64,000 nucleotides of DNA, from assembly GCF_964355755.1 (NCBI RefSeq), contig NC_092680.1, forward strand, positions 15,973,001-16,037,000, written 5' to 3'. Shown here piece after piece: positions 6,762 to 55,894 of this stretch (the stretch's first letter is position 1; the number at the start of each line of letters is the position of its first letter). A program made the translations under genes and the position numbers. The notes beneath the pieces were generated by a model. It was not told the origin of the DNA, did not search any database, and was given only the letters and a program-made list of their open reading frames with translations. Source of the stretch: Antedon mediterranea (Eukaryota > Echinodermata > Crinoidea > Comatulida > Antedonidae).

Positions 6762-8105
6762 CTATAGATTGATTGTTTCTTGTTTCGCAAATCGGACTCG
6801 TCTTGTATTTGTTTTAGGTGTACGAGAATTACTGTTAAAACTCGGAAATAGAAGAGCAACTAAGCTACGACTCTTTTTGGTGGAACAATCATGCGCATCT
6901 ACACCAGAATAAACGTCATTAATGGAGCGTCGTGCGGGAGTAGATCTTTGCTTGTTTCGTCTACAAACCATTAAGTACACAATAGTTATTGCAATAATAA
7001 CAAATAGGGCAGTTATAACTAATGCAATTTTTAGTCCTACTTGCGTAATCTTTGTATCATCCTCATCTATTTTAGATGTAGTTTTCGGTGACGGAACATC
7101 ATTACTTTGAATCTCATTTGGTGACGGAGATACGTATAATATTGAGTCTCTTGATCCACGGCGACGACTTGCATCCGTCATAACTTCACATGTGAAGCGA
7201 GACCTGTCGTCGGTTGCTTTAATATTTATAATTTTTAAAGACCTATGTCCATTTTGTGGTTGTGCTCGTTGGCTTATTATGAGGTCGGTATTAAGTATGG
7301 ACCAACTGTATCTAGGTTTTTCGTACAATGAAAGACCGTGCGCATTACAAGTAAACAGCGCTTCGGTGCCAACTGCGGTTGAGATTACGGCTGGTGTAAT
7401 CGTAACAGTCAAAGGCCTACTTTGTGAAATTAAACTGTTAGGTATTGTAATGTAACACATTTGGTGTTTCCGAGTTAGTAGGTTAGTAACCTTACACGTA
7501 TACGTAACTCCAAAATCATCGTTGGTTAGGATAACTCTATGGGACAGTGATGACAATTCGACCTGATTTAATAAAGTTTTACCAGACCGGCTCCACGTCA
7601 GTTCTGTGATTGGTGACGCTACCAAACCTGAATCGCAATTCAAATCCAATGAAGCATGTAGTCTAATCCCTTCTAGTGATTGTTTAGTATAGCAATGTGG
7701 ATAGTAATTGGCATTCGTTTCTTCCATTACCTCCAGCTTGGCTGATTGCAAGTCAACGATTGTTTTGTTACTGATATAGCCACATGTATACATTCCGGTA
7801 TCAGTCAAATGAACGCTCTTTATGACAAGATCAAAACTCCTTTCATGTGAAGGTTTTATCGAATAGCGACGACCAACTTTGCGATCCAAAAGTGAGTTAA
7901 TATGTCCGTCATAACTTAGAATAGTTACCAATTCAAACAGCCATACTACGGTTTCGTCGGAAACCTTCTCGGCGATTTCACATCCTAATCGAACTTGTTC
8001 GAACGGTGAAACTACCACATTAACTGGATCCAACTTTATGTCTACACCACGACATATGAAGAAAATATTGAAAAGGCATATGAAAACAATTTTGGAAATA
8101 TACAT
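6762..8105 (-). CDS. Receptor A: three-Ig-domain single-pass membrane protein
   Basis: 447 aa from the ATG at 8105. The frame is open further upstream but has no earlier ATG, and this start gives a good signal peptide (about 1-20). Domain 1 is V-like: C42, W55, C108 with 'TDTGMYTC'. Domain 2 has four cysteines: C138, C157 (W171), C204 and C217. Domain 3 has C253, W268 and C306. One membrane helix spans about 357-381. The basic tail holds 'DVYSG' near 397 and 'RRVRFA' near its end; RVRF at 436-439 fits the RVxF protein phosphatase-1 docking consensus. The whole receptor is in one exon. It is a likely type I surface recognition or adhesion receptor (inference); the ligand is unknown. The tail is closest to that of gene C. 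Domain 2 has the CTX/CAR-like extra cysteine pair. Confidence 0.85.
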   Translation of the reverse strand: MYISKIVFICLFNIFFICRGVDIKLDPVNVVVSPFEQVRLGCEIAEKVSDETVVWLFELVTILSYDGHINSLLDRKVGRRYSIKPSHERSFDLVIKSVHLTDTGMYTCGYISNKTIVDLQSAKLEVMEETNANYYPHCYTKQSLEGIRLHASLDLNCDSGLVASPITELTWSRSGKTLLNQVELSSLSHRVILTNDDFGVTYTCKVTNLLTRKHQMCYITIPNSLISQSRPLTVTITPAVISTAVGTEALFTCNAHGLSLYEKPRYSWSILNTDLIISQRAQPQNGHRSLKIINIKATDDRSRFTCEVMTDASRRRGSRDSILYVSPSPNEIQSNDVPSPKTTSKIDEDDTKITQVGLKIALVITALFVIIAITIVYLMVCRRNKQRSTPARRSINDVYSGVDAHDCSTKKSRSLVALLFPSFNSNSRTPKTNTRRVRFAKQETINL

Positions 8106-9125
8106 TGCTTCAAGTATCAGACGTATAAACGGTAGTGTGTCACAATGAAGACGGTAATATCTCTGTATAATAGACAATAAACCCACTGCTTACACTATAT
8201 TAGAATAACAAGGCAATCAACCGAGTAAAACGATATATTGAAAATCAGCACTGTGACAATGTATTTTTAATATTATTATACAAATCTTAGATATGCTACT
8301 ATTTTATCGTGGATTGGCCATATTTACCCTTTTTACTCTCAGACACAGAATAATGCAAAAACAAAAGCCTCATTTATGAAACACATGGCTGTAGCTTGGT
8401 CATTTGATTGTTATTTTCATATAACGTGCAGTTCACTATTAGTTATACTAAACAGTAAACATGATATTTACTGTTTGGTATTAATACTACTTGCACATTA
8501 AGGTTTTTAGTCTCTACAGCTCACTATGTCGGTCGGTCGGTCGGTTGGTCGGTAAACACTAATTTGAACACGCGACTGCAGCCATCTACAACAATTGAGA
8601 TTGTGGTGCAACGGACAGTTGGTGACTGTTCAAAACTTATATATAGAAAAACATACCTACAAGTGTGTCTGATGTATACGAACTGTTCTTTATAAATAGG
8701 CCTGCAATGATATCGTTTTCTTCATCTCTCGCCAAGAATCGAAAAAGATAGGAATTTTATTGAATTACAACACAATTTTCCAACTAAATAGGAGAAATTC
8801 TCGAGAATCTAGAGTGAATTTTGTATTTGTGTTTTGTATAAAGGACACATCCCTAACCATATGATATGAATGCTCATATTATATATTTTCAAAAACAGGA
8901 CTCGTTAAATCAATCTATATGTAATTTATTAATTCGGTTATGCAAATAAATGATAGACGAAAAAAGAAAAGTAATGGAGCACTGAATGAAAATAATGTTT
9001 CATGATTAATGTTGTAGAATAACATGTGGGCCATGTGTTCAAATCATTCACTGCAGTTTCCTGTTTAATTTCCTACAATCATGTTCAACTTGCAAAACAT
9101 TTAAACATCTACAAAATCTAAAAGT
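8106..9125. other. Intergenic upstream of gene A; short GGTC tandem repeat
   Basis: Contains the gene A promoter region (no convincing TATA box seen). At 8527-8552 there is a GGTCGGTCGG-type tetranucleotide repeat followed by unique-looking sequence. A similar block in reverse orientation (GACAGACCGACC) lies near 46415-46440, next to 'ACATAGTGA', so both belong to one dispersed repeat. No gene seen. Confidence 0.5.
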
Positions 9126-9405
9126 CATATTGGTCAGCATACATTCGATATCACAAGGTTATATTCTCCAACGTCACGGTTACCTTCTATTGAAAGACGA
9201 TTATCATTCACAGAAGCCAACATCCTACCATCAGAACTCAAGAACATATTCGATGTTACAATGTTGCCAAAACAAAGAGTCTCCATGGGTCTTATTTTCA
9301 ACTGCACATTCTAAAACTACAGTTTCTCCTTGGAAAACCTTAGCAGAATCTGGTCCATACCTGAAACTTATACATAAGGCTAGGCTAGCATATTGGTCAG
9401 CATAC
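9126..9405. repeat. 17-bp perfect direct repeats flanking an inserted V-domain fragment
   Basis: CATATTGGTCAGCATAC occurs at 9126-9142 and again at 9389-9405. Between the two copies lies a fragment nearly identical to part of receptor gene B. This looks like a target-site duplication produced when the fragment was inserted. Confidence 0.85.
9143..9389 (-). pseudogene. Displaced copy of the V-domain region of receptor gene B
   Basis: About 247 bp matching 11376-11621 of gene B with scattered substitutions and small indels. The copy starts about 30 nt after the gene B start codon and stops before the second framework cysteine. It therefore has part of the signal peptide and most of the V-like domain, with no start codon, poly(A) or downstream domain. 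A 1-nt gain and a 2-nt change near 9262-9290 shift the frame. It is in the same orientation as gene B, about 2.2 kb away. It is not a functional gene, but it could serve as a donor for gene conversion into the gene B V domain (inference). Confidence 0.85.
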
Positions 9406-10142: not shown

Positions 10143-11651
10143 TCAATTACTTGATTCTTTGATTCCTCCGTTATTTATAACATACAATGGGTTATTATGC
10201 ATAGCAAGTTGGTCTTTATTTGCATCTTCTTCCTGTGTGTTGGCAGAATTCTCAATTTTACTGTCCTTCAGATGTTCCAAACGCCAACATCTGATAAGAA
10301 ATATCACAAAAGTAATGACAACGAAGAAGCACACACCTGCAACTACCAAGATGACTGCTACAGACAAATTATCGTCTGCAGACTGTGAATCATTGATTGG
10401 TGGAGGCACGGCATCATCATCGTCGTCGTCTTTAGGCGGAGTCATTCTTACTGTCGTCTGTAGTTGTACAAGAGGCTTACTTGTGTCCGCTGGTATATCT
10501 GTTGATACTACTGAAGATGTACTATCTCTGGATGAAGTATTTACCATCGGCGTTGGCTCATCATGAACATAAAGATGTGTTGCAAATGTCGAATTGTACT
10601 TTTTTGACGTGTCATCAAGCAATGTCGATGCGAGTGTTACTAACGTTGATTTCTCTAATTCCGAAATTGATTCTGTTTGAAGTATGATGGTTGATAATAC
10701 TGTTGTTTCTATTCCGTCTAGTGATAACACTATGCTGGCTTGACCTTCTACGCCAGTTGTCGTTATACCAACGCATGTTACATTTTTACCATTATCGATT
10801 CCTTTCGACAGAGGAATAATAAAGACCTCCCCGCTTACAACATAGTCTTTAGAACCAGAACCAATTATATGTCTACCATCAACGAACCAACGTGTTTCTT
10901 TATACGACGGTAAAGCATTCTCTACATTACACATCAACGTGATTGGTTCTCCAACAGTATAGGTTACATTATCTGGAGATATCATCACTGTCGGTTCAAT
11001 AGTCATTGGTGTTATAGAGCAGAATCTGGTATGAACCAAAGCTTCACCAGATGCCTCACAAACATAATCTATTCCATTGTCTTCTGGTAATAGCTTTAAT
11101 ATAATAAAAGCTGCGTTTATATCTTTTATAATTATAGAACCGTTGTTTTTCCAGGCTAGATCAGTCGGGGGACTTCCTCCAATAGATATGCAAACTAGAC
11201 TGACTGTGTCACCGGGTTTAGGATCTACACTCTCCTTGTTAATGCTACATCTTGGATAGAAATCGTGTGGTGGGATTAACAATGTTAAATTGGCGTCCCG
11301 GAATACAAACACACTCCCTCCGTTGTCTGTCATTTGGAATCCACAACGATAAAGTCCTCCATCAGGAGCATCAACATTCGATATCACAAGGTTATATTCT
11401 CCAACGTCACGGTTACCTTCTATTGAAAGACGATTATCATTCACAGAATCCAAAATCCTACCATCTGAACTCAAGAACATATTCGATGTTACATGTTGCC
11501 AAAACACAAAGTCTCCAGGGGTCTTATTTTCAACTGCACACTCTAAAACTACAGTTTCTCCTTGGAAAACCTTAGCAGAGTCTGGTCCATACCTGAAATT
11601 TATACATACGGCTAGGCTAGCCTGACATAACACTAACCAAACAATCTCCAT
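10143..11651 (-). CDS. Receptor B: three-Ig-domain membrane protein with S/T-rich stalk
   Basis: 502 aa from a real ATG at 11651, with a signal peptide at about 1-16. Domain 1 opens with 'FRYGPD', a start shared with C and D, and is V-like (C38, W51, C103). Domain 2 has C135, C154 (W167), C198 and C211, the four-cysteine layout. Domain 3 has C241, W255 and C293. A Ser/Thr-rich stalk (about 310-420) with likely O-glycosylation contains a D-run. A membrane helix spans about 428-453. The 49-residue tail has NPLY at 487-490, an NPxY motif of the kind that binds PTB adaptors or drives clathrin uptake. It lacks the RVxF of A and C. The gene is in a single exon. It is likely a surface recognition receptor (inference). 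A fragment of its V domain is duplicated at 9143-9389. Confidence 0.88.
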   Translation of the reverse strand: MEIVWLVLCQASLAVCINFRYGPDSAKVFQGETVVLECAVENKTPGDFVFWQHVTSNMFLSSDGRILDSVNDNRLSIEGNRDVGEYNLVISNVDAPDGGLYRCGFQMTDNGGSVFVFRDANLTLLIPPHDFYPRCSINKESVDPKPGDTVSLVCISIGGSPPTDLAWKNNGSIIIKDINAAFIILKLLPEDNGIDYVCEASGEALVHTRFCSITPMTIEPTVMISPDNVTYTVGEPITLMCNVENALPSYKETRWFVDGRHIIGSGSKDYVVSGEVFIIPLSKGIDNGKNVTCVGITTTGVEGQASIVLSLDGIETTVLSTIILQTESISELEKSTLVTLASTLLDDTSKKYNSTFATHLYVHDEPTPMVNTSSRDSTSSVVSTDIPADTSKPLVQLQTTVRMTPPKDDDDDDAVPPPINDSQSADDNLSVAVILVVAGVCFFVVITFVIFLIRCWRLEHLKDSKIENSANTQEEDANKDQLAMHNNPLYVINNGGIKESSN

Positions 11652-15652: not shown

Positions 15653-17218
15653 TTATGGAATAACGACATCGACTTGAATAATGTGTTCAGTATTGTCTAT
15701 AACACGTGGTGTGTTAGACTCTGTTATTTCTATGGGAAAGTCAGCAAATAAAATATCCTTTGATTGTAAGTTAAAAGTTGTGTTTGTTTCAATTTGGTCA
15801 TTGACGTCATCAATATCGACAAGTTTGATTACCGTATCTGGAACTTCCTCTTCGTCAAAAAATCCACTGTTATCTTCATCGATGTCTACCGGAAGAGCGG
15901 CAGCCTGTTTTCTAGCCATTGCTCTCATCTTTCGAATACGAGAAAAATTAGATGGTGATTGTTTTGGAGACAAGTTTGGAAGAATAAAAGTTACCCTTTT
16001 CTTTACTCCAGTAGCATTATAAGTCTGCGTGTCCGCTGTTCGCTTTATTATACTTTTCGTTTGTTTTCCATCATATACATCACGATGTTGGACTCGTTTT
16101 ACAAAAGTGAAAAGAAAAACCAAGGCTAGTAAAAATACCGTAATAGATAGAATCACTGGTAAGACTACATTATTTCCACTGGAAGAGGAATTTGGTACCT
16201 GTTTATCTACGACATCATAATCCTGTGTCGGAGATACTGATGGTCGAACTTCTGAGAGTTTGATTGTAACCGAGCCGTTAGCCTGTAGACCCGAAAGTGT
16301 TTTTACATGACACGAGATCAAAGTGTTGTTGTCTGATGGCATAATACTTGGTATGACTATTCGTTCACCTTGCATTAATATTGCGAGCCTGTTCTTTGAT
16401 TCTGTCATAACCCTTTCGGTATTCCAATACCAATGTATAGATTTGATTGTCCCTATAACATCAATTTTACAATGAAGTGTTAGCTCTTCATATAATCGAG
16501 GGTTAGGATCCGACATGTGTATTTCGACTGTTGGTAGAATAACCATTGGAAGGACATAGCATGAACGTGGTTCAAGAAGTGCCAATCCGGTTGCTGAACA
16601 TATGAATTCTACACCGTTATCATCCGTTGTTAAGGTGTGAGTTACGGTAGAAATAGTGTTCATTGGATCTACTATCATCGTGTTATTTTTCCACCAAGAA
16701 AGCATAACTGGAGGTGTTCCACCAAAAGACACACAACCAAGTGAAATCGTATCCCCTGGTTTAAGGTATTCTATCGTTTGTGTTGACAAGCTGCATTGAG
16801 GGTAGAATGATGAAGGTGGACTCAATAACGAAATCCTGGCTTCTTGGAAAACAAATTCGCTTCGCGTATCATTTATAAAATAAAATCCACATTGGTAAGT
16901 TCCTGCTTCCTCTGTGTTTACGGCAGGTATCACCAAGTCAAACTCACCATCGCTGTGGTCGCCCGCAATGATGTACCTTCCAGCTCGAATATTGGGATAA
17001 ATATTGCTATCGTAACTGATATACGTGTTGTGTTCAACAAGATGCCAGAATACAAAATTACCTTTCAGTTTATCATCCACTGCGCACCTAAGCGTAACTT
17101 GTTCGCCGTTGTGAACCTGGCTTGAGTCTGGACCCTGACGAAATTTAATGGCGTATACAAATCCACCTTGGAACAGTAAAAATACACATAACCGTTTAAA
17201 ATGAGCACCCCAGCACAT
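15653..17218 (-). CDS. Receptor C: three-Ig-domain membrane protein with PP1-docking tail
   Basis: 521 aa from the ATG at 17218; the open frame above it has no ATG. The signal peptide covers about 1-23. Domain 1 opens with 'FRQGPD' and is V-like (C45, W58, C110). Domain 2 has C142, C162 (W175/176), C207 and C220. Domain 3 has C250 and C303. A membrane helix spans about 350-373. The 148-residue tail has 'DVYDG' near 380, 'KKRVTF' at 406-411 (a near-ideal RVxF motif for protein phosphatase-1) and then an acidic C-terminal half. The arrangement DVYxG then RVxF is shared with gene A. The extracellular part is most like B. It probably signals through a recruited phosphatase (inference from the motif). 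Single exon. Confidence 0.87.
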   Translation of the reverse strand: MCWGAHFKRLCVFLLFQGGFVYAIKFRQGPDSSQVHNGEQVTLRCAVDDKLKGNFVFWHLVEHNTYISYDSNIYPNIRAGRYIIAGDHSDGEFDLVIPAVNTEEAGTYQCGFYFINDTRSEFVFQEARISLLSPPSSFYPQCSLSTQTIEYLKPGDTISLGCVSFGGTPPVMLSWWKNNTMIVDPMNTISTVTHTLTTDDNGVEFICSATGLALLEPRSCYVLPMVILPTVEIHMSDPNPRLYEELTLHCKIDVIGTIKSIHWYWNTERVMTESKNRLAILMQGERIVIPSIMPSDNNTLISCHVKTLSGLQANGSVTIKLSEVRPSVSPTQDYDVVDKQVPNSSSSGNNVVLPVILSITVFLLALVFLFTFVKRVQHRDVYDGKQTKSIIKRTADTQTYNATGVKKRVTFILPNLSPKQSPSNFSRIRKMRAMARKQAAALPVDIDEDNSGFFDEEEVPDTVIKLVDIDDVNDQIETNTTFNLQSKDILFADFPIEITESNTPRVIDNTEHIIQVDVVIP

Positions 17219-22698: not shown

Positions 22699-25053
22699 TC
22701 AGATATAATCGCTGATATCGCTACACTCCATGTTCATATAATCGCTGGAATCCACACAACTGATATCCGATGACCCTTTACTGAGTATATCATCAGATTT
22801 AGCTTTGTATGAATTATCCAACGCTTTATCTGGAACTGTTTCGTAAACATGGTGGCCTTTTTCACAACATGCTTGTGCTTCTAGGCCAACAATATCTGGC
22901 GCGCTTTCAGCTACACGTAAATTTGAAATAAAAGAGCCTGGGTATACAATGTTATTTGTATATTCCTCGTATGGATTATTCTTAGGGCAACTTTTAGTAC
23001 GTCTTAGCCGCGACCAACACGTAACAGATGCCCTTCGTGGTAGCATGGTATGATTGCTATTTTGAACATTGTCTTCAGGTATTGAACCGAAGAATTGGCC
23101 TGGATATGGCTCGTTTAGAGATAGTTCAGTTTCGAAGTCAACATCATAAAGCTCAGCCGACGTTAGGTCATCACACTTTACCGGTATCAGGAGGCGTCTT
23201 TCAAGATTTCCCAATCCACCAGATCGATAGTTTTTATTGTTCTTTTTTACTCGAGCATATGAAGGGCATGTGCTTCTTGAATGCTCATCACAACCACACG
23301 GAGAAGGATTACGAGACCATTTCTGTGGTTTCTTTGAGCAACAATTGTCTGATACCTCTGGAGTTATGACGAATGATGTTCTGTCGGGTATTTGGTAATA
23401 TATCTCATCTGGTTCGGGTAGTAGGTTGTCAGTCGCTTCACTACTAGAACGAACAGATAACTCAGTACCACAGTACAACATATCATCATCACATGGTGGT
23501 GGACTAGATTGTGTCTGGTAAATTCCATCAGGAATCTCTGAGTACAGATCCGGCGCTATTAACCGCGTTGGTTTAGGAGGCAAAGGAGGTGCAACTAAGC
23601 CTGACGCCTCGTGATGATGAGATTCAAACATAAACGAATTGTCATTCCCATCGATAAGCGGATCAAGTATGTCATCCTCGTTTAAAGACGGATTACATTC
23701 GTTGGTCGTCAACAAACTTTTAAAATCAATATCGTTGAATAGCTCGGCATATACAACATTGCAGTGTGATATTCCTCCACTTACAGATGGAATCAATCTT
23801 CCAGAGCTACGACCTCTTCGAGTTGTTATATCAGGTAGGTCAAGAGATGCAGGTTTCTGATTACATGCAAACATTAACAACGTACCAGCTATAAGTATCA
23901 AAATACAGATTGTAATAACGGACGCAATGACCGCGAGTAAACTAAATCCAAACGCCTTAATTGGTTTATAGCCATCCTCTTCTATAATTATCTTATCTGT
24001 TGCTGATGATGATGCTGTAATTGTTGTCCTCGTTAGTTGTGTTTTTGAGGGGGCATTAGTATGACGGTGTATATTCGTATATTGATCACTTACTGTCATT
24101 GTTGTACTGGCAACTGCATACAGACCAGAACTAATGTAAGCCTGGCATACAATAGTCGATTGATTATCAGCAATATCAACACCACGAACCTTTAAAGTTC
24201 GCCCATCCCCAATCAAATCATATTTCATAGGATAGAAGATTTCCTGATTTATAACGTATCCATCGTGTATCCAATTATACTTTACAATAGTTGGCAAACC
24301 TGATGCATTACAGACAAACGTAATGTCATTGTTCACCGTTATTTCTGGTAGCCTGGGTGATATTTCAGCAGTAGGATAAATATTCATTGGTTTTATAGAG
24401 CAATTATGCACATCTAGCGTCACCGGATTAATCTCAGTACAGGTAAAAATACGCCCGTTATCAAAAGGTGTTAACATGATCTCCGTTACGTGCCAACCAT
24501 ACTGAAATCCGGTTAAGTCTTTTGTTCCATTTTGCCATTTTACTACCAAATTTTTACTGGCACTTGAACAGTTAAATAATACTCTCTGGTACGGATTTAA
24601 TGGTGGGTCTAAGTTGTGTGAACTACATATTGGAGTCTTCGTTCCAACCTCTAAAACTGTAAGTTTGGCTCTACCCGATTTTCCAAAATTTCCTGCCGCA
24701 GTCGACATTTCTCTTGAAAAATAACATTCAAAAAATCCTTCATCAGATTTAGAAACATTTTTTATTTGTAGTTTATACTGACCTGCAACATCACTAATAA
24801 TATTACATCTTTTATCAAATCCTGTTTTGTAGCTAAATACCTTGATGTCAACACTTATAAAACGCGTTCCATTGAAAACCCATAGTATTTGACTAGCCCC
24901 CTTCGAAGCAACAATACATTCGAAAGTTACCGTATCACCTTCATACACAGTTTTATCGTCAGGACCTTTCCGTAGTACAATCGCGTCTAGAGACAGTACT
25001 TTTAAAAGAATACAGATAAGTATAATCCGTACAAAACGTATATCCGACTCCAT
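22699..25053 (-). CDS. Receptor D: three-Ig-domain membrane protein with long tyrosine-rich signalling tail
   Basis: 784 aa from the ATG at 25053 (no earlier ATG), with a signal peptide at about 1-23. Domain 1 opens 'LRKGPD' and is V-like (C46, W58, C110). Domain 2 has C143, C162 (W173), C205 and C218. Domain 3 has C248, W261 and C303. A membrane helix spans about 368-397. The tail of about 387 residues is the longest in the cluster. It holds an ITIM match VVYAEL (433-438), the SH3-ligand-like PPLPPKPTR (489-497), YSEI (504), 'EIYYQIP', PSYARVKKN (Y599), 'NPYEEY', YETV and YMNM (Y772), the last identical to the CD28 PI3K/Grb2 motif. 'AELFNDIDF' and 'AELYDVDF' look like an internal duplication. 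It is probably the main tyrosine-phosphorylated signalling receptor of the cluster (inference). Confidence 0.88.
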   Translation of the reverse strand: MESDIRFVRIILICILLKVLSLDAIVLRKGPDDKTVYEGDTVTFECIVASKGASQILWVFNGTRFISVDIKVFSYKTGFDKRCNIISDVAGQYKLQIKNVSKSDEGFFECYFSREMSTAAGNFGKSGRAKLTVLEVGTKTPICSSHNLDPPLNPYQRVLFNCSSASKNLVVKWQNGTKDLTGFQYGWHVTEIMLTPFDNGRIFTCTEINPVTLDVHNCSIKPMNIYPTAEISPRLPEITVNNDITFVCNASGLPTIVKYNWIHDGYVINQEIFYPMKYDLIGDGRTLKVRGVDIADNQSTIVCQAYISSGLYAVASTTMTVSDQYTNIHRHTNAPSKTQLTRTTITASSSATDKIIIEEDGYKPIKAFGFSLLAVIASVITICILILIAGTLLMFACNQKPASLDLPDITTRRGRSSGRLIPSVSGGISHCNVVYAELFNDIDFKSLLTTNECNPSLNEDDILDPLIDGNDNSFMFESHHHEASGLVAPPLPPKPTRLIAPDLYSEIPDGIYQTQSSPPPCDDDMLYCGTELSVRSSSEATDNLLPEPDEIYYQIPDRTSFVITPEVSDNCCSKKPQKWSRNPSPCGCDEHSRSTCPSYARVKKNNKNYRSGGLGNLERRLLIPVKCDDLTSAELYDVDFETELSLNEPYPGQFFGSIPEDNVQNSNHTMLPRRASVTCWSRLRRTKSCPKNNPYEEYTNNIVYPGSFISNLRVAESAPDIVGLEAQACCEKGHHVYETVPDKALDNSYKAKSDDILSKGSSDISCVDSSDYMNMECSDISDYI

Positions 25054-27278: not shown

Positions 27279-27917
27279 TTAAGTGTCACGGCGAAGCATT
27301 GCCCGACAATCCCATGTATCTCCAAACTCTTCAGTATCATCTACAATTAAGCTTGAAACTATTTGTCCTGTAGTAATATCAATCACAGATTTTCTGTAAA
27401 GTCGAGGAACAGCATAGATATTCGAATCCCTGTTACTACCACTTGCCTCCAGTTCATCGGTATTATTTTCCATGATTCCGCTGTTATTTTTAATATCAAT
27501 TTCACTGTAATCAATACTACGACTCTGCCAATATATCGCAATCACGATACCAACTAAAAGTAAAATTCCACTCAAAAGTCCAATAATAGAAAACGTATCG
27601 AAAAAGTGTTTAGACGATTTACCAGATTCTTCTGTAGGTTCAGCTGAAAGTTTTGATATAATGTTCTTCTCTGTTGATCCTTGCAAATCAGGGTCCAGGC
27701 TGCTTGTATCTGAAATCGTTGCCATTACTTCAGTCCCAGTTTGACTAGTATAAGTTTGAGGAATAGTCTGCAACAATTGCTTCAATTGTGATCTGTCATG
27801 CAAATCAATAAATACATTGCGTTCCTCAATATGTTTCTCACCGTATGTTGTAGCAACAAACACAGTAATATGTATAAAACATAAATACATACACACATGC
27901 AAACGAGAAGCATTCAT
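27279..27917 (-). CDS. Receptor E: Ig-less single-pass protein with the cluster's shared membrane/tail module
   Basis: 212 aa from the ATG at 27917. The signal peptide (about 1-26) is followed by a short polar ectodomain of about 80 residues with no Ig domain and no cysteine pair, then the module 'FDTFSIIGLLSGILLLVG' and a membrane helix (about 108-131). The tail has IDYSEI (Y137, fits the ITIM consensus), IYAVP (Y168, a YxxP Crk-type SH2 site) and 'SVIDITTGQIVSSLIVDD'. It is a close paralogue of F. The membrane module matches G, H, I and J, which do carry Ig domains, so E probably lost or never gained the V domain (inference). It could be an adaptor-like partner or a modulator of its Ig-bearing neighbours; no function can be assigned. 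Confidence 0.8.
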   Translation of the reverse strand: MNASRLHVCMYLCFIHITVFVATTYGEKHIEERNVFIDLHDRSQLKQLLQTIPQTYTSQTGTEVMATISDTSSLDPDLQGSTEKNIISKLSAEPTEESGKSSKHFFDTFSIIGLLSGILLLVGIVIAIYWQSRSIDYSEIDIKNNSGIMENNTDELEASGSNRDSNIYAVPRLYRKSVIDITTGQIVSSLIVDDTEEFGDTWDCRAMLRRDT

Positions 27918-32991: not shown

Positions 32992-33786
32992 ATGTCTTTA
33001 CTTTACTTATGTATTTTTGTATTATATTCTGGAATTTACAATTGCAATGCTGCAGCATTGACAACGAAGCAACCGTTATACGAACGAGTTCAAGAGAAGA
33101 TTGTGAAAACATTCGGAGACACTGTTGTATTGCACTGTAGTGTAAATCCTGCAATTGTCCACAGCACACTAATACAATGGGTCTTCGTAACTAACAACGA
33201 CGAAGTGCTTACACAAGGAAAATTTCTGCAAACTTTAAATGTTAACAAGAGATCTCGATATTCTGTGAGTGTAGATAACAATTTCCATCTACAGATAAAA
33301 AACATTCAATCAGAAGATGTGGGAACGTACATTTGTAGGTCAATGTTCAGCATGGCAAGTTATGAAACTATTGCGACAAGGGTGCTTTTTGCAGACAATA
33401 AACAGCACAATGAACCACCAGTTTTAGAACAAACACATCAACATCCTGCTAAACCATCAGAAGCACCAAAAGAAGAAGAAAGGATAACAGGACAATCCAG
33501 TGGACGAGAAGATGAAGAATCGCCAAAAGGAAGCAAACATTATGACGCACTCTCTGTGTTTGGTCTTTTATGTGGAATCGCTCTAATAGTTGGAATTGTT
33601 GGATCAATAGCATGGAAGAATGGAAGGAAAAGTGGTAGAAAGAATGTCGAGAAGACGACTGATGATGAACCTACAAAAGCTAGCTTGGCAGATTCAACGC
33701 GCAAAATACAAGTACCCAATGTGCGAATGATGCGGGGGTTAGACAGCGACATGGAATGTAATAAAGCGAACGCGTACAGGTATTAA
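32992..33786 (+). CDS. Receptor G: one V-like Ig domain, membrane protein
   Basis: 264 aa from the ATG at 32992; the frame is open above it but without an ATG. The signal peptide covers about 1-22. One V-like domain has C49, W63 and C115 with 'SEDVGTYIC'. An acidic and basic low-complexity stalk follows. The module 'YDALSVFGLLCGIALIVG' and a helix at about 187-208 come next, then a basic tail ('GRKSGRKNVEKT') of about 55 residues with no clear tyrosine signalling motif. The membrane module links it to E, F, H, I and J. Single exon, with AATAAA 36 nt past the stop. It is probably a surface receptor or co-receptor (inference). Confidence 0.85.
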   Translation: MSLLYLCIFVLYSGIYNCNAAALTTKQPLYERVQEKIVKTFGDTVVLHCSVNPAIVHSTLIQWVFVTNNDEVLTQGKFLQTLNVNKRSRYSVSVDNNFHLQIKNIQSEDVGTYICRSMFSMASYETIATRVLFADNKQHNEPPVLEQTHQHPAKPSEAPKEEERITGQSSGREDEESPKGSKHYDALSVFGLLCGIALIVGIVGSIAWKNGRKSGRKNVEKTTDDEPTKASLADSTRKIQVPNVRMMRGLDSDMECNKANAYRY

Positions 33787-34494: not shown

Positions 34495-35040
34495 ATGCAT
34501 GTCCATGTGTTTGAAGTTATGTGTGTATGTTTATTGTTTTGCTACGATGTACTATGCAACACCATCGAACCAGAAACTGAAAACGTCGACAAGACAGTGA
34601 AAGCATTTACTGGAAAGAGTATAACATTTGAATGCAGAGCGCCAAACGCACAGCCAAGTGACACCATATCATGGTACTATGAAGATGAACCTTTGTCAAA
34701 TAACGGAGATATTATAGTAGACGATGAAACAGCTTCGGAAAGGTTTTCTATTACACAGTTAGACATGTATTACAATCTAACAATAGTGGATGTTGAATTG
34801 GAAGATGTCGGCACTTATGATTGTAAAATGGAGCGTACTGGAAGCGACCTGTTGATTTTACGTACACTGACTCTTCTTGTCAGCGAAAGTGATTCAACAA
34901 ATCCACTGGACATATTTGCAATTTTAGGATTATTGTCTGGCATTCTTCTTATACTCGGTATAGTAGGAGCTATTGCATGGTCGAGGGGAAGGAATCGCGG
35001 GGAAATCGAACGAAGAATGGCCATGGAGGAAAGCGCATAG
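34495..35040 (+). CDS. Receptor H: short one-V-domain membrane protein
   Basis: 181 aa from the ATG at 34495, with a signal peptide at about 1-22. One V-like domain has C47, W60 and C110 with 'LEDVGTYDC', then almost no stalk. The module 'LDIFAILGLLSGILLILG' and a helix span about 140-162. The 19-residue tail starts 'SRGRNRGE' and has no tyrosine. With so short a tail it probably signals through a partner or acts as a decoy or adhesion form (inference). Its small-residue spacing in the helix (GLLSG, GIVGA) suits helix-helix packing. Next to G on the same strand and likely a duplicate of it. Single exon. Confidence 0.83.
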   Translation: MHVHVFEVMCVCLLFCYDVLCNTIEPETENVDKTVKAFTGKSITFECRAPNAQPSDTISWYYEDEPLSNNGDIIVDDETASERFSITQLDMYYNLTIVDVELEDVGTYDCKMERTGSDLLILRTLTLLVSESDSTNPLDIFAILGLLSGILLILGIVGAIAWSRGRNRGEIERRMAMEESA

Positions 35041-38852: not shown

Positions 38853-39785
38853 TCAGTTATCAGGAGAAATACGGAAACGGTAATTCATCATCAATTCTCG
38901 CGACTTGAAGATTTTCGGACGTTGTGTATACTTGTCATAAGTCAATATGTCAATTGTAGTGTTATTTGCTACAGCAACCATACATGGGTTAATAATACAT
39001 AACTGATTTGGCACAGTAATTCTATCTTCTTTATTATCAAATCGGTTGATAAAATGTCCATCACTTTTGAATAATTGTAGTTTGTGGTTACTTGCTCTAA
39101 TATTATCACCCTCACCAACTGCAATTGCATGTAGCCACCTCACCATACCATCTTCATGCCCGTTTTCGACGAGTGCTTTCAGTTCCTTGTCCGTTTTATC
39201 ATACATTAATAGTGGTTTCCTTCATCTGTCACAAGTACTTTTCTAGTTTGTGTAAGTGCAACATCCGAGTATCCAGAATAATTGGAACATTTTGTCTGTG
39301 TTCCTATTATCTCAATGTGCGCAATACTATCAATATCAAACATATACACACATGATATGCTCAACTCTGCTACATAAATAACAATAGCAGACTCATCCAA
39401 GTAAATAACACATGGGTTTGTTAAAACACCTTTGCCAATTGATTTGATCACATAACCATTCATATCACATACTTGAATACATGCATTTCTACAATCACTG
39501 AATGCTATTTTACCATTTGTCAAATGTATACATTCGGGTTACTTTCATACCTTTTGATAATGTAATTTTTCCAAAATTTTTTGTAAATTTCATTTTTCTA
39601 AAATGATACCAGCAAGCAATCATCATTAAACTTAACTATACCAGTAGGAATGCTCCTTAGTTTGATAGTAACAGGTTTGAATGTAACATTTGCAACTCCT
39701 CTAGGAATACCTTCTTCTTTTCCAATGTTCAATTTCTTATCTATGTCTCCAAGAAGATTTAAATTGTTGCTAGCAATCCTGTAAT
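38853..39785 (-). pseudogene. NHL beta-propeller (TRIM2/3/71-like) pseudogene
   Basis: Minus-strand coding remnant readable only across several frames: about 39785-39590, 39590-39524 (shifted), 39523-39206 and 39206-38853. The blade-like segments 'GKIAFSDCRNACIQVCDMNG', 'RKVLVTDEGNH' and 'LQLFKSDGHF' show the NHL pattern (short hydrophobic strand, D.xN, hydrophobic-x-hydrophobic, G). At least two frameshifts and a stop break it. No RING, B-box or coiled coil is seen upstream, so only the propeller end was kept. Living relatives in this family are RNA-binding or ubiquitin-ligase TRIM-NHL proteins; this copy should be dead. It lies between two direct copies of a 0.7-kb repeat. Confidence 0.75.
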
Positions 39786-43050: not shown

Positions 43051-44289
43051 ATGAATAGTTTAAGAGGTGTTGTAATAATGGTACTTGTTTTGAGTTTACA
43101 TTCAGTGCACATTGTAAAGACGGACGGTATGCTAGCTGAAATAATGGGCAGACGAATCACAAATATCGGGGATACCGAAGTGCTACGGTGTTTTAGGCCT
43201 ACAACGGAAAACAGAGCTGAAGAGGTCGTTTATTGGATACATGAGGGTGAGATCATTAGCGTCAATGGACTCATTCAAACATTAAATCTAGACCATCGTG
43301 CGAGATATGATATGATAGGCAATCATAAAAATGGACATTATAATTTACTTATACAAAATATAAAATCTGAAGATACTGGAAAGTGGGATTGTAAGTACGG
43401 ACCATCAGTTGGTAACGTCGGTGCCCTTCAAAGTACAGTAATGATGGTGATTTCACCTGACGAGCCAGTGTGCAGTTTATCACCCACTGTTATTCATTAC
43501 GGTGATTCATATCAACTAAAGTGTGTCTCAAGTGGAGGTTTTCCTGCTCCTACCCTTGTATGGTTAAAGGATGGGATGGAATTGTTACAAACAGATACCG
43601 ATGACTTGCTTGTTTTAGAAAGGATTGCTGACCAGACTGATAACAATGCACAATACACGTGCGAAGTGAGAAGTCTAGCGTGGCCAACTACACGCACATG
43701 CACGCAACATGTTATGGTTATCACAGACAAAAAACCTGTGCGAATGATGAGAAATGCAGAAAAACACGCCAGAAAAAATGCAGAAGGTACGAATCATAGG
43801 CAGAACACGGACACAAGACAACATGAAGGTTGGTTATCTGATCCTAATTTTGATCACACATCAGTACGACCCCATGTAACAAACGCACAAGAAAACACTA
43901 CAAACCACACGAAAACTGAAAATACGGACATGTTTGATGTATTTTCAGTAATAGGACTGGTGTGTGGTGGCGCCCTTGCTATCATAATTCTAATGGCCAT
44001 TTCATGGAACAAGGGTCGCAGCAATACATTACCCAGAAGCTCCAAAACGGTAAAGATGCGTGGAACGAGAAATGCAGTGTTCAAGTCAGAAATAAAACGT
44101 CTTAGTCGCCACTCGTTTTCAAATATAACAACACGTAGTAGCACAGCAACAGCTAGTGACAGTCTGCACCATAAGCCATTAATAGATATCAATTCAGACG
44201 AAATAGTTCCTAATGAAATGATTCATCTCGACAGAATTGGTACACATAACGAATCGTCCCCGCGCTTTATAACAGTACCTATACATTAA
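43051..44289 (+). CDS. Receptor I: two-Ig-domain membrane protein
   Basis: 412 aa from the ATG at 43051, with a signal peptide at about 1-24. Domain 1 is V-like: C47, W62 ('YWIHEGEI') and C114 ('SEDTGKWDC'), with a small extra insert after C47 compared with J and K. Domain 2 has C141, C158 (W171), C204 and C217, the four-cysteine layout. A polar stalk follows, then the module 'FDVFSVIGLVCGGALAI' and a helix at about 297-318. The basic S/T-rich tail has 'LIDINSDEIV', a shortened form of the box in E, F and J, and no YxxP. Domain 2 is almost the same at the DNA level as in J and K, while domain 1 and the stalk differ. Single exon; likely surface recognition receptor (inference). Confidence 0.87.
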   Translation: MNSLRGVVIMVLVLSLHSVHIVKTDGMLAEIMGRRITNIGDTEVLRCFRPTTENRAEEVVYWIHEGEIISVNGLIQTLNLDHRARYDMIGNHKNGHYNLLIQNIKSEDTGKWDCKYGPSVGNVGALQSTVMMVISPDEPVCSLSPTVIHYGDSYQLKCVSSGGFPAPTLVWLKDGMELLQTDTDDLLVLERIADQTDNNAQYTCEVRSLAWPTTRTCTQHVMVITDKKPVRMMRNAEKHARKNAEGTNHRQNTDTRQHEGWLSDPNFDHTSVRPHVTNAQENTTNHTKTENTDMFDVFSVIGLVCGGALAIIILMAISWNKGRSNTLPRSSKTVKMRGTRNAVFKSEIKRLSRHSFSNITTRSSTATASDSLHHKPLIDINSDEIVPNEMIHLDRIGTHNESSPRFITVPIH

Positions 44290-44645: not shown

Positions 44646-44659
44646 GGCTTAATAGTAAA

Positions 44660-48189: not shown

Positions 48190-49596
48190 ATGATGGTGAA
48201 TAGTTTACGCGCTGTAATGACGACGATCATTGTTTGGAGTATGAATTCACATATGTTAGCTGCACAAATGGGCTTACGAACCACCAGCATTGGAAGTACC
48301 GAAGTTATACGGTGTTTTCCAGATAAAAAGGGAGTTGATGTTGCTTGGATTCATGAAGGAGAGATAGTTAGCATTAATGGACTCATTTATACAATAAATC
48401 TAGACCATCGTGCGAGATATTCTATGATAGGCGATCATCAAAATGGACATTATAACCTGCAGATAAAAAACATAAAAGCTGAAGATACGGGAAAGTGGGA
48501 TTGTATGTTCGGACCACCGGGTAACGTTGAAACTATTAAAAGGACAGTGATGATTGTGATTCCGCCTGATGACGGTTACCCAAGTTGCGTGTTATCATCA
48601 CCAACTGTTATTCGTACCGGTGATCCGTATGAACTAGTATGTGACTCAAGTGGAGGTTTTCCTGCTCCTACCCTCGTATGGTTAAGGGATGGGGTGGAAT
48701 TGTTACAAACAGATACCGATGACTCGCTTGTTTTAGAAAGGATTGCTGACCAGACGGATAACAATGCACAATACACGTGCGAAGTAAGAAGTCTAGCGTG
48801 GCCAACTGCTGCACGCACATGCACACAGAATGTTATGGTTATCCCAACAGACAAACCACCCGCGCCACTGACCACAAGCTTAACGACAAGTGAGCGCATA
48901 ATTACTACAGAAAAACATACAACGCAACAGCCTTCAGAAAAACGCACTATGCAACATCATTCCGAAAAACACACTACGCAAAATCCTAAAAACCCCACAA
49001 CCGTAATAAACAAATTTACGAATGCACTAAATCCAGACGCTACACAACACGACGGTAGGTCAACTGATCCAAATAGTGATCACATCTCAGAACGACCGCA
49101 TGTAACAAACGCACAAGAAAATACAAACCAAACAGAAAACCTAAACCCGGAAGCCACGCAATCTCCCCCTATGTTTGACGCATTGACAATCTTTGGACTA
49201 TTGTGCGGTTTCTTTCTTGTGATTTTAATTTTGATGGCTGTTTCATGGACCAAGGGTCGCAAAAAGACATTTACAGGCACGCCTGAAACAGAAAAGATGC
49301 GTGGATCGACAGAGTCAATAGTAGAATCAGAAAACAAATATTATTCTCGCCCGTATTCAACTACAACACTTAACAGCACAGCAACTACTGAGACCATTTA
49401 CCACGTTCCACGGGTGCCGAGTGTGCCGAGTTTGTACTGCGTATCGTTAATAGATAGACATTCAGGTGAAATAGTGTCCACAAATGTAGAAATGTTTGAT
49501 GATCAAGACAAGATTTATCAACATGACGAATCGCTATCACACTCTACAGATATAGGCCGGCCTATATATGCGAAAGTTAAGAAAAATAAGTATTGA
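48190..49596 (+). CDS. Receptor J: two-Ig-domain membrane protein with YxxP tail
   Basis: 468 aa from the ATG at 48190 (a second ATG follows at once), with a signal peptide at about 1-24. Domain 1 is V-like (C42, W53, C105, 'AEDTGKWDC'). Domain 2 has C133, C151 (W164), C197 and C211. The stalk contains three tandem 10-residue units, 'EKHTTQQPS', 'EKRTMQHHS' and 'EKHTTQNPK', rich in Thr and probably O-glycosylated. The module 'FDALTIFGLLCGFFLVI' and a helix lie at about 332-353. The tail has IYHVP (Y403, YxxP), 'SLIDRHSGEIVS' and a final 'PIYAKVKKN' (Y460) that matches PSYARVKKN in D. AATAAA lies 52 nt past the stop. It is the complete member closest to the broken gene K. Probable signalling receptor (inference). 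Confidence 0.88.
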   Translation: MMVNSLRAVMTTIIVWSMNSHMLAAQMGLRTTSIGSTEVIRCFPDKKGVDVAWIHEGEIVSINGLIYTINLDHRARYSMIGDHQNGHYNLQIKNIKAEDTGKWDCMFGPPGNVETIKRTVMIVIPPDDGYPSCVLSSPTVIRTGDPYELVCDSSGGFPAPTLVWLRDGVELLQTDTDDSLVLERIADQTDNNAQYTCEVRSLAWPTAARTCTQNVMVIPTDKPPAPLTTSLTTSERIITTEKHTTQQPSEKRTMQHHSEKHTTQNPKNPTTVINKFTNALNPDATQHDGRSTDPNSDHISERPHVTNAQENTNQTENLNPEATQSPPMFDALTIFGLLCGFFLVILILMAVSWTKGRKKTFTGTPETEKMRGSTESIVESENKYYSRPYSTTTLNSTATTETIYHVPRVPSVPSLYCVSLIDRHSGEIVSTNVEMFDDQDKIYQHDESLSHSTDIGRPIYAKVKKNKY

Positions 49597-51554: not shown

Positions 51555-54151
51555 TACAATGAATGAGATCAACGCAATAGAGGAGAGGGATTGGCGAGTC
51601 AAATACAATGAATGAGATCACCACAATAGATGAGAGGGATTGGCGAATCAAATACAATGAATGAGATCACCGCAATAGAGGAGAGGGATTGGCGAGTCAA
51701 ATACAATGAATGAGATCACCGCAATAGAGGAGAGGGATTGGCGAGTCAAATACAATGAATGAGATCACCGCAATAGAGGAGAGGGATTGGCGAGTCAAAT
51801 ACAATGAATGAGATCACCGCAATAGAGGAGAGGGATTGGCGAGTCAAATACAATGAATGAGATCACCGCAATAGAGGAGAGGGATTGGCGAGTCAAATAC
51901 AATGAATGAGATCACCGCAATAGAGGAGAGGGATTGGCGAGTCAAATACAATGAATGAGATCACCGCAATAGAGGAGAGGGATTGGCGAGTCAAATACAA
52001 TGAATGAGATCACCGCAATAGAGGAGAGGGATTGGCGAGTCAAATACAATGAATGAGATCACCGCAATAGAGGAGAGGGATTGGCGAGTCAAATACAATG
52101 AATGAGATCACCGCAATAGAGGAGAGGGATTGGCGAGTCAAATACAATGAATGAGATCACCGCAATAGAGGAGAGGGATTGGCGAGTCAAATACAATGAA
52201 TGAGATCACCGCAATAGAGGAGAGGGATTGGCGAGTCAAATACAATGAATGAGATCACCGCAATAGAGGAGAGGGATTGGCGAGTCAAATACAATGAATG
52301 AGATCACCACAATAGAGGAGATGGATTGGCGAGTCAAATACAATGAATGAGATCACCGCAATAGAGGAGAGGGATTGGCGAGTCAAATACAATGAATGAG
52401 ATCACCGCAATAGAGGAGAGGGATTGGCGAGTCAAATACAATGAATGAGATCACCGCAATAGAGGAGAGGGATTGGCGAGTCAAATACAATGAATGAGAT
52501 CACCGCAATAGAGGAGAGGGATTGGCGAGTCAAATACAATGAATGAGATCACCGCAATAGAGGAGAGGGATTGGCGAGTCAAATACAATGAATGAGATCA
52601 CCGCAATAGATGAGAGGGATTGGCGAATCAAATAGAATGAATGAGATCCCCGCAATAGAGGAGAGGGATTGGCGAGTCAAATACAATGAATGAGATCACC
52701 GCAATAGAGGAGAGGGATTGGCGAGTCAAATACAATGAATGAGATCACCGCAATAGAGGAGAGGGATTGGCGAGTCAAATACAATGAATGAGATCACCGC
52801 AATAGAGGAGAGGGATTGGCGAGTCAAATACAATGAATGAGATCACCGCAATAGAGGAAAGGGATTGGCGAGTCAAATACAATGAATGAGATCACCGCAA
52901 TAGAGGAGAGGGATTGGCGAGTCAAATACAATGAATGAGATCACCGCAATAGAGGAGAGGGATTGGCGAGTCAAATACAATGAATGAGATCACCGCAATA
53001 GATGAGAGGGATTGGCGAATCAAATAGAATGAATGAGATCCCCGCAATAGAGGAGAGGGATTGGCGAGTCAAATACAATGAATGAGATCACCGCAATAGA
53101 TGAGAGGGATTGGCGAATCAAATAGAATGAATGAGATCCCCGCAATAGAGGAGAGGGATTGGCGAGTCAAATACAATGAATGAGATCACCGCAATAGAGG
53201 AGAGGGATTGGCGAGTCAAATACAATGAATGAGATCACCGCAATAGAGGAGAGGGATTGGCGAATCAAATACAATGAATGAGATCACCGCAATAGAGGAG
53301 AGGGATTGGCGAGTCAAATACAATGAATGAGATCACCACAATAGAGGAGAGGGATTGGCGAGTCAAATACAATGAATGAGATCACCGCAATAGAGGAGAG
53401 GGATTGGCGAGTCAAATACAATGAATGAGATCACCGCAATAGAGGAGAGGGATTGGCGAGTCAAATACAATGAATGAGATCACCGCAATAGAGGAAAGGG
53501 ATTGGCGAGTCAAATACAATGAATGAGATCACCGCAATAGAGGAGAGGGATTGGCGAGTCAAATACAATGAATGAGATCACCGCAATAGAGGAGAGGGAT
53601 TGGCGAGTCAAATACAATGAATGAGATCACCGCAATAGAGGAGAGGGATTGGCGAGTCAAATACAATGAATGAGATCACCGCAATAGAGGAGAGGGATTG
53701 GCGAGTCAAATACAATGAATGAGATCACCGCAATAGAGGAAAGGGATTGGCGAGTCAAATACAATGAATGAGATCACCGCAATAGAGGAGAGGGATTGGC
53801 GAGTCAAATACAATGAATGAGATCACCGCAATAGAGGAGAGGGATTGGCGAATCAAATACAATGAATGAGATCACCGCAATAGAGGAGAGGGATTGGCGA
53901 GTCAAATACAATGAATGAGATCACCACAATAGAGGAGAGGGATTGGCGAGTCAAATACAATGAATGAGATCACCGCAATAGAGGAGAGGGATTGGCGAGT
54001 CAAATACAATGAATGAGATCACCGCAATAGAGGAGAGGGATTGGCGAGTCAAATACAATGAATGAGATCACCGCAATAGAGGAAAGGGATTGGCGAGTCA
54101 AATACAATGAATGAGATCACCACAATAGAGGAGAGGGATTGGCGAATCAAA
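51555..54151. repeat. 49-bp minisatellite, 53 units
   Basis: Unit: TACAATGAATGAGATCACCG followed by CAATAGAGGAGAGGGATTGG and CGAGTCAAA. The span of 2597 bp is 53 times 49, so length is strictly kept. Rare variants mark higher-order copying: CGAATC at 53261 and 53849, CACCACAA at 53331 and 53919, and GAGGAAAGGG at 53491 and 54079 are each exactly 588 bp (12 units) apart. The unit is not a multiple of three and has no long frame. It lies between receptors J and K. Confidence 0.97.
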
Positions 54152-55093
54152 ATAGAAACATAAATATGTTGTTCAAAATTAGGACAAGAGATAGGCGGCG
54201 CTATACTGTATTTTTTTTTAAATGTCAACCAAGAGAAATCCGATTTTCCAAAATGTATTGCTTCCAAAATAGAGAAACCGGATAGGTGGTCAGGAATAGT
54301 GACAATGGTATTGTCCAAAACAGAAAACTGAAAATGGTGGTCCTGGACACTTATCTATTTCAGATATGTCAATTCGTTTTTTCATTTAAAATGAAAAAAA
54401 AAATTACATTCTATTATCAAGCTCTGTAAAATCATCTTTTTCAATTAGCACAGTATTTTATATATTACTCTATCCATACATTTCATACATTTTATTGCAT
54501 CTTGTTCAGTTCCTGATCCCGTGTTGTCCTGCTTTTTTGTTTGTTTTGTTTTTCAGTTTCGAAAGCTTATGGTGGTTTTGATTTTATATTCAATAGGGCA
54601 GCCATTTCCTGATCATCCTTCTTGTGGAAAACAGTGGCGTGTTTCTTGATAATACAGAGGACATGGGAGTGCTCCAGGTACGATGACCGGTAACGTTCTA
54701 AACTCTCCCAGTATTGAAAACCAACCAAATAAGGTGTTTCTCCGCAATCTTCCTAGAAAACTGCATGGTGCGGCGAGTAAAGTTTATTGACCTTTTAGTA
54801 GAAACGTCTTAAAAAAATAGTGACGCGTGTTTCCTGGCTAAACGCCGTAATACTGACAATACCAGCGCAGATGCTTGGTGCTTTTTATAGATAAACAACG
54901 CAAAAAAAACATTAGTTTTAGTTAGAACTTCAAATTACGGCCACGTTCTCAAAGTGGGGAGACTTTGCGCATACGCAAATGATTACATTTACGTCATTCA
55001 AATCGACGTTGTGTGGTATTAAGATAACTGAGAGACTTAGCAGTACAAAGTGATAAAATACATATTCCGTAGAGATTAATTACAAGAAGGAGT
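54152..55093. other. Intergenic and promoter region of gene K
   Basis: The first 200 bp after the array, on the minus strand, has an open frame but no recognisable protein. The last 100 bp carries the position equivalent of the gene J TATA box ('GGTATTAA'). No other gene seen. Confidence 0.45.
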
Positions 55094-55894
55094 ATGATGA
55101 ATGTGCTACGTGTTACAGTAATAATGATCGTTGTTTGGAATATGAATTCACGTATCATATCTGCACAGTTACGAACCAGCATTGGGAGTACCGAATTTAT
55201 ACATTGTTTTCTAGATATAAAGGGAGCATATGTTGTTTGGATTCATGAAGGAGAGATCGTTAGCGTTAATGGACTCATGTATACAGTAAATCCAGACCAT
55301 CGTGCGAGATATGATATTATAGGCGATCATCGAAATGGACATAATAACCTACAGATAAAAAATATAAAAGCTGAAGATACGGGAAAGTGGGATTGTATGT
55401 TCGGACCACCGGGTAACGTTGAAACTATTAAAATAACAGTGATGATTGTGATTCCACCTGACGATGGTTACCCAAGTTGCGCTGTATCACCATTAACTGT
55501 TATTCGTACCGGTGATCCGTATGAACTAGTATGTGACTCAAGTGGAGGTTTTCCTGCTCCTACCCTCGTATGGTTAAGGGATGGGGTGGAATTGTTACAA
55601 ACAGATACCGATGACTCGCTTGTTTTAGAAATGATTGCTGACCAGACGGATAACAATGCACACTACACTTGCGAAGTGAGAAGTCTAGCGTGGGAAACTG
55701 CACGCACATGCACGCAGAATGTTATGGTTATCCCAACAGACAAACCACCCGCGCCACTGACCACACGCTTAACGATAAGTGAGCGCATTATCACTCGAAA
55801 AAAACATACCACGCAACAGCCTTTAGAAAAACGCACTACGCATAATGTTAGAGTTATTCCAACAGATGGACCATCTACTCAAGTAACTAAGTAA
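55094..55894 (+). pseudogene. Receptor K: 5' part of a J-like receptor gene, cut in its stalk
   Basis: 266 codons from the ATG at 55094. Signal peptide about 1-24; V-like domain 1 with C38, W49 and C101; domain 2 with C129, C147, C193 and C206; then the start of the Thr-rich stalk, where 'NVMVIPTD' recurs as 'NVRVIPTD'. The stop arises at the junction with a LINE fragment. No membrane helix follows, so as it stands the product would be secreted. Domain 2 is nearly identical in DNA to that of J. A further piece of its stalk is found beyond the LINE at 56555-56602. The remaining 3' part (helix and tail) was not found in the window. Either a broken gene or a secreted two-domain form (inference). 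Confidence 0.85.

Follow-up and report, generated by a model that had tools for sequence, protein, structure and literature searches.

Single-exon immunoglobulin-domain genes form a large and clustered family, possibly of recognition receptors, in the crinoid Antedon mediterranea

We analysed a 64,000-nucleotide stretch of the Antedon mediterranea genome (C11:15973001-16037000, hereafter the window), which carries a cluster of genes for immunoglobulin (Ig) domain receptors. These genes belong to a family found at no fewer than 174 places in the genome, and the coding regions of most of the copies that we fetched read as unbroken from signal peptide to tail. We put the chances at about even that they are lineage-expanded, single-exon type I receptors with three Ig domains (V-C2-C2-like), which would serve cell-surface recognition through variable heads, include an inhibitory branch with paired tyrosine motifs and act most likely on immune-type cells. 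Below, window genes are cited by their positions in the window, and family members elsewhere by chromosome label (C2, C3, C8 and so on).

All eleven open frames listed in a preliminary description of the window were recovered at the same coordinates and on the same strands, six on the minus strand followed by five on the plus strand. They are bounded by stops on both sides, and their lengths of 181-784 amino acids (aa) in DNA of approximately 33% GC, together with the strength of the domain matches, exclude a chance origin. The Pfam scan identified Ig domains in nine of the nine Ig candidates (best domain match E 9e-22) and no Ig domain in the two short genes at 27279-27917 and 29627-30307. 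A hydrophobic N-terminus and a membrane helix were found by hydropathy in ten of the eleven genes, consistent with the description of ten complete genes and one broken one, the latter (55094-55894) lacking the helix.

The single-exon state proposed for these genes was supported at the sequence level by the lengths of the frames, by their anatomy and by the spacing of relatives on C3. A consensus of 23 ectodomains, compared with the genome, gave 131 scored matches among 537 candidates; all of them lay in open frames of at least 273 aa and 130 in frames of at least 350 aa (median, 480 aa). The match itself spanned at least 260 aa in 114 cases and contained an internal stop in one. As a control, we used I-set domain matches in the same genome (150 scored of 1313 candidates, with many rows from one region, C2 12.5-12.9 Mb), for which the median frame was 122 aa and frames of at least 350 aa occurred in 17 of the 150. 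According to crude tests, a signal-peptide-like start, a three-Ig span and a transmembrane (TM) helix were combined in one frame in 56 of 67 fetched family frames, one more having been set aside as it was cut by the end of its locus. The eleven that failed were seven window genes, either broken or with fewer than three Ig domains, and four frames with a weak signal peptide score. The three-Ig profile was spanned by 60 of the 67 frames, and the window genes carry from zero to three Ig domains. On C3, 18 consecutive genes of one array are separated by 113-332 bp between coding regions, and there is therefore little room for further exons.

The family extends far beyond the window. The assembly of 354 Mb consists of 18 contigs, of which eleven measure 22-41 Mb and the other seven are small. 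The window cluster continues past both window ends (C11 15.81-16.12 Mb) and contains at least 25 places, which run as two minus, seven plus, seven minus, five plus and four minus; the single strand switch noted previously thus stands within the window and not for the whole cluster, which has four. In addition to the ectodomain consensus, two further queries were compared with the genome. A C3 tail gave 79 matches, some of them short fragments, and the spliced product of an intron-bearing relative on C8, described below, gave 146 matches, 138 of which were in frames of at least 270 aa; six of the remaining eight were the C8 locus itself. The union of the searches, with short-frame fragments and the C8 locus excluded and the window genes added, gave a minimum of 174 places with long frames, distributed over nine of the eleven chromosomes. 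This figure is likely a lower bound, as only the best candidates were scored, and the unfetched places are known by frame and match only. Matches beyond the ectodomain-consensus list that started less than 1.25 kb apart on the same strand were counted once, with the effect that the window genes at 32992 and 34495 became one place; two matches within one 1056-aa frame (C11 2.11 Mb) counted as two. Clusters of at least three contained 130 of the 174 places, which supports the tandem duplication suggested in the preliminary description, and the size and domain diversity of the family exceed what was claimed there. The largest cluster, at C3 18.70-18.91 Mb, holds 52 places, 25 on the minus strand followed by 27 on the plus strand.

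The evolution of the copies was studied in two C3 arrays of 18 genes (array A) and 13 genes. The ratio of non-synonymous to synonymous divergence (dN/dS) was 0.13-0.42 in the Ig domains, TM helix and tail, and the copies have therefore been kept as proteins; values for the signal peptide were higher (0.67 and 0.59). Mean dS in array A was 1.13 in the first Ig domain (Ig1), followed by 0.75, 0.58 and, in the tail, 0.20, and it fell from 1.36 to 0.13 in the other array, saturated pairs having been dropped from these means (147 of 153 and 63 of 78 pairs were kept for Ig1). Amino-acid identity was 61% and 48% in Ig1 and 93% and 95% in the tail. The homogeneity of the tails at silent sites points to gene conversion, or to heads being swapped onto one shared tail; mutation might instead be locally slower in the tails. 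Ig1 of array A contains sites 29, 68, 71-73, 76, 114 and 117 from among the 25 that vary most, and all of these except the first would map to the C'-C'' and F-G regions of a V-type domain. When only close pairs were taken, with Ig1 dS below 0.4 (27 pairs in array A and 10 in the second array), pN/pS in the signal peptide of the second array reached 1.75.

The cytoplasmic tails of some members carry motifs resembling the immunoreceptor tyrosine-based inhibitory motif (ITIM). Across 30 tails, the pattern YA[DE][LIV] was counted seven times; shuffled tails averaged 0.15, and none of 2000 shuffles reached seven. A stronger sign than the plain ITIM pattern, treated below, was a terminal pair, YxxL followed by YxxI/V, present in five of 35 proteins, located on C7 (two), C11, C6 and C2, with the tyrosines 20-27 residues apart and the second one 6-11 residues from the end. 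The 35 proteins had been chosen beforehand, with two entries set aside as cut or broken and 31 of the 34 C3 genes likewise excluded. The shuffle mean for the pair was 0.006 (31 tails of at least 20 residues), a figure to be taken as a guide and not as a blind test, since the pattern was framed after the first four tails and the fifth (L052) was found afterwards. Within the window, the gene at 22699 contains VVYAEL and the gene at 48190 ends in IYAKVKKNKY. Long- and short-tailed relatives were found side by side: the ectodomains of the neighbours L011 and L012 (C11:15812300-15831500) are identical at 314 of 329 positions and their tails measure 489 versus 6 residues, the gene with the 6-residue tail having a duplicated Ig3-plus-stalk. 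On the basis of their sequences, the tails with paired motifs are predicted to recruit SH2-phosphatases.

The relatives of the ectodomain were sought by sequence and by structure, the latter with a model of the ectodomain of the window gene at 15653 (mean pLDDT 84.8, pTM 0.59). The nearest folds according to VIA-align were DIP, Kirrel3 D1, Necl-4 and Rst, with Kirrel3 D1 (the first Ig domain) aligning at Z 15.7 over 98 residues and 1.6 A; the whole-chain root-mean-square deviation was large, probably due to differing domain angles. In sequence searches, SYG-2, MDGA1, CD276, titin and Rst led for one member, Robo for a C3 member, and titin and SYG-2 for the modelled gene. Rst matched a family member with 50.9 bits over D1-D2, and the two have in common the stretches RYxxVGxxxxGxYSLxI and LTVLVPP. 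A profile search of the PDB matched 4616 Ig chains and did not discriminate among them, and the NCBIfam search returned nothing useful. The label of CTX/JAM/nectin-type relatives given to the window genes earlier found no clear support in these comparisons: Necl-4, PVR and JAM-A do appear among the matches, but they do not lead, and Kirrel/SYG, DIP, Robo and SIRP score equally well or better. We treat all these rankings of sequence and modelled fold as leads only.

Taken as recognition receptors, the genes could have arisen and could work as follows. A spliced transcript of a Kirrel-like gene would have been copied back into the genome, and the retrocopy would have spread by tandem and dispersed duplication. 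D1 would bind cell-surface ligands, whether self, neighbour or microbe, the variable sites of one array lying at presumed binding-loop positions of a V domain. Gene conversion would keep the tails of a block alike and thereby connect many ectodomains to a single signalling output. In copies that carry the paired YxxL...YxxI/V motif, the tail would attract tandem-SH2 phosphatases of the SHP type and the cell would be inhibited, and short-tailed or tail-less copies with similar ectodomains might be decoys, competitors or adhesion partners. The most likely use would be cell-cell or self/non-self recognition on mobile cells of the coelomocyte type. Graft rejection occurs in echinoderms, whose innate receptor repertoires are large, and an immune-type role is plausible for this family because of the paired ITIM-like tails. 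We offer only tentatively the more far-reaching proposal of a germline repertoire of well over 170 recognition receptors that stem from one reverse-transcribed Kirrel-like gene and combine variable V-type heads, block-homogenised tails, an inhibitory branch with ITIM-like or switch-type (ITSM) motifs and tail-less counterparts. If true, the principle of paired receptors or of allorecognition would have been invented here independently and with single-exon genes, whose heads and tails gene conversion is free to exchange.

A number of results speak against the recognition-receptor reading. The plain ITIM pattern [SIVLT]xYxx[LIV] was only mildly enriched (17 in 30 tails versus 10.9 in shuffled ones, with 84 of 2000 shuffles as high). 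The terminal pair was absent from 30 of the 35 tails, including the three C3-type tails tested, and ITIM signalling is therefore possible for a minority only. The classic design of an activating partner is not evident: of the four short-tailed members L012, L015, L016 and L017, three have no charged residue in the helix, and L015 has a single arginine, placed at the outer margin of the helix window. No mean dN/dS above 1 was obtained for any Ig domain of the two C3 arrays, so positive selection on D1 was not supported. Besides the removal of saturated pairs, the gradient of silent divergence is weakened by the stalk of array A, which breaks it (dS 1.26) and aligns poorly, and by the close pairs, in which silent differences between Ig1 and tail were small (pS 0.19 versus 0.13 and 0.19 versus 0.10). 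Regarding structure, many antibody chains scored Z 14-15 against the model, near the Kirrel and DIP rows, and the fold ranking is therefore not sharp; Foldseek TM-scores were low, with 0.37 for the top match, SIRP-alpha. In a tree of 40 rows, the intron-bearing C8 gene joined several family members in a fork without branching order, and the tree therefore does not settle single origin, founder or direction of intron change. Finally, kirrelL, the one intronless Ig gene of this type in echinoderms for which we came across a functional study, acts in skeletogenic cell fusion (PMC8903837; eLife 2022) and not in immunity.

This last point underlies the strongest rival, which we regard as possible though on the doubtful side: the family would be an expanded kirrelL-type adhesion set, through which skeletogenic or other cells adhere, homophilically or heterophilically, and fuse, and its diversity would provide a Dpr/DIP-like addressing of cell types and not defence. 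It agrees with the Kirrel/DIP-like D1, with the lack of the paired inhibitory motif in most tails and with the report in PMC8903837 that kirrelL is intronless in all echinoderms examined, a crinoid included, and is required for skeletogenic cell fusion; the authors propose retrotransposition as its origin. On the other side, at least 174 places, array-homogenised tails under divergent ectodomains and ITIM/ITSM-like pairs are closer to recognition-receptor repertoires than to a developmental adhesion code.

The family was also compared with known systems. The genes are like echinoderm KirrelL (PMC8903837) in being intronless Ig-domain transmembrane genes of an echinoderm (here by sequence only). 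They differ from it in their number, in the arraying of many of them, in the ITIM-like tails of some and in the homogenised tails of two arrays, the likeness to KirrelL being one of description. Kirrel/Neph proteins (Rst, SYG-1) and SYG-2 resemble the family in the sequence and fold of D1-D2, in a range where other Ig families and antibodies also score. Kirrel/Neph proteins have five Ig domains, whereas most Antedon members have at most three and no introns; a further difference is the extra cysteine pair in D2 of the family, the first cysteine of which is absent from the Rst stretch compared. The vertebrate SIRP, Siglec, CEACAM and KIR/LILR receptors likewise have clustered genes, diverse ectodomains and adjacent long- and short-tailed relatives, and the vertebrate paired receptors with ITIM/ITSM share the paired terminal tyrosine motifs found in five members, SIRP-alpha being also the top Foldseek match. 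Unlike these paired receptors, the family is single-exon, three of the four short-tailed members named above lack a charged helix residue and its signalling is predicted. The Hydractinia Alr allorecognition complex consists of clustered Ig-type receptors with tyrosine motifs and a proposed recognition role; the likeness extends to the clustering and the motifs, but the Alr genes are multi-exon and belong to a different phylum. In echinoids, kirrelL is one of a family of intronless genes; earlier work on KirrelL includes Ettensohn and Dey (2017). Our search of the open-licence PubMed Central literature for a known single-exon expansion in the Ig superfamily led to kirrelL only, and to no report of a recognition repertoire of comparable size and composition, of ITIM-like tails in such a family or of tail homogenisation. 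The single-exon state of an echinoderm Ig gene was thus already known; what appears new, within the reach of these searches, is how large the family is, together with its ITIM-like and its homogenised tails. Single-exon receptors are easy to clone and express, which makes ligand, signalling and polymorphism directly testable, and divergent heads versus homogenised tails within one exon would suit the study of gene conversion in recognition genes.

The origin of the family was approached through its intron-bearing relative. The D1-D2 region of Drosophila Rst gave 31 genome matches, to family members and to intron-bearing relatives alike, 24 in frames of at least 323 aa and seven in short frames (C8, C9 and C4). 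On the minus strand at C8 8.756 Mb, we found a gene with a D1-D2-D3 layout whose exons encode single domains or parts of domains. Its junctions are GT-AG; the introns at D1/D2 and D2/D3 are in phase 1, phase 2 introns interrupt D3 and, at R|HSVVG, one D1, and two further D1-type exons lie upstream at the locus. Its D2 carries both extra cysteines (FPTC ... KIC), a pair conserved without exception in the 23 aligned family rows, and the spliced peptide aligned with family members over approximately 250 aa (best identity 32%, E 1.6e-29). Since the same genome holds a relative that has introns and this three-domain layout, a retrocopied founder that spread by duplication, as the preliminary description had suggested, appears to be the simplest reading. 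The reverse, in which the intronless state is ancestral and the C8 gene gained its introns with no retroposition, would be compatible with the tree, which does not fix the root. We consider it unlikely, as the introns at the domain borders of the C8 gene are in phase 1, as expected of old introns (phase 1 at domain borders is the common pattern in the Ig superfamily), four intron gains in one gene are improbable and most I-set matches elsewhere sit in short frames.

A reading in which relaxed selection has left many duplicates in decay, and the family is mostly a product of unstable arrays, is very improbable. Signs of decay do exist, namely the truncated window gene, the ectodomain match with an internal stop, the few short fragments among the C3 tail matches and three pairs of window genes with dN/dS of 0.55-0.70, but they stand against the low dN/dS in Ig domains, helix and tail of the two C3 arrays and the long frames at 130 of 131 ectodomain matches. 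Scarcely credible is the view that these frames are parts of larger genes with additional exons beyond them, which would agree with the short frames of most I-set matches and with a single-exon call made from sequence alone, but not with the complete anatomy of 56 of the 67 frames, the narrow C3 spacing and the stops on both sides of the window frames.

The six minus-strand genes of the window begin with four three-Ig or three-Ig-span genes, each in a single exon. The first (6762-8105, 447 aa) encodes a signal peptide, three Ig domains, a TM helix and a 69-aa tail; its sister in the tree is a nearby ITIM-bearing gene (C11:15969298-15971112, 47% identity), the motif being absent from the window gene. 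The second (10143-11651, 502 aa) has a long stalk, a TM helix and a 51-aa tail with NPLY, the third (15653-17218, 521 aa), whose ectodomain was modelled, has a TM helix and a 152-aa tail, and the fourth (22699-25053, 784 aa) has a TM helix and a 396-aa tail with 17 tyrosines and the ITIM-like VVYAEL. They are followed by two Ig-less genes, at 27279-27917 (212 aa; signal peptide, stalk, TM helix and tail) and at 29627-30307 (226 aa, 63% identical to the former). Both share a juxtamembrane-plus-helix motif with the genes at 32992, 34495, 43051 and 48190; with the last of these they also have IYxxPR ... ID ... G.IVS in the tail in common, and because of these shared motifs they look like family members that lost their Ig heads.

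On the plus strand, the genes at 32992-33786 (264 aa; one V-type Ig domain, TM helix and 57-aa tail) and 34495-35040 (181 aa; one Ig domain, TM helix and 23-aa tail) precede two with two Ig domains, a stalk and a TM helix, at 43051-44289 (412 aa, 97-aa tail) and 48190-49596 (468 aa, 117-aa tail with the IYAKVKKNKY end). The broken gene at 55094-55894 retains two Ig domains, 79% identical to the gene at 48190. A retroelement-like frame (55887-56294, plus strand) starts at the break and matches Pfam ALKBH8_N, a match that we take to be frequent in reverse transcriptases of long interspersed nuclear elements (LINEs); it is probably a retroelement insertion. Between the last two family genes lies a minisatellite (51555-54151; 53 copies of 49-bp units, 97% matches), with a strong G and A strand skew around it.

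Other features of the window include a LINE-type reverse transcriptase frame at 183-2414 (743 aa, RVT_1 and zf-RVT) and a minus-strand tRNA-Asp at 5960-6031 with a reported anticodon ATC, the usual one being GTC. Two overlapping minus-strand frames at 38853-39538, one with an NHL repeat match, are perhaps a decayed TRIM/NHL gene, and long AT-rich tandem arrays with units of 63 bp and approximately 102 bp occupy 56813-58694 and 62564-63841 at the right window end. Elsewhere in the genome, more than twelve I-set matches (approximately profile positions 9-79, frames of 94-169 aa) extend on both strands over about 1 Mb at C8:4.70-5.78 Mb, possibly a second, intron-bearing Ig gene cluster. Searches of the genome for COX1 and for molluscan haemocyanin found nothing, and the control for the latter gave no signal either. 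The profile of bindin, which to our knowledge is confined to echinoderms, matched over 66 positions at E 2.3e-28; one stop is listed inside the match. Together with the Hox matches described next, this makes an echinoderm likely, and the eleven chromosomes and the continuous Hox run suggest a crinoid; Bryozoa, considered on account of the chromosome number, was rejected in view of the Hox and bindin results. Twelve homeobox matches were located on C2 7.83-8.21 Mb; the nine examined lack the Lox5-type KLTGP peptide and presumably resemble ambulacrarian Hox1 to Hox9/10.

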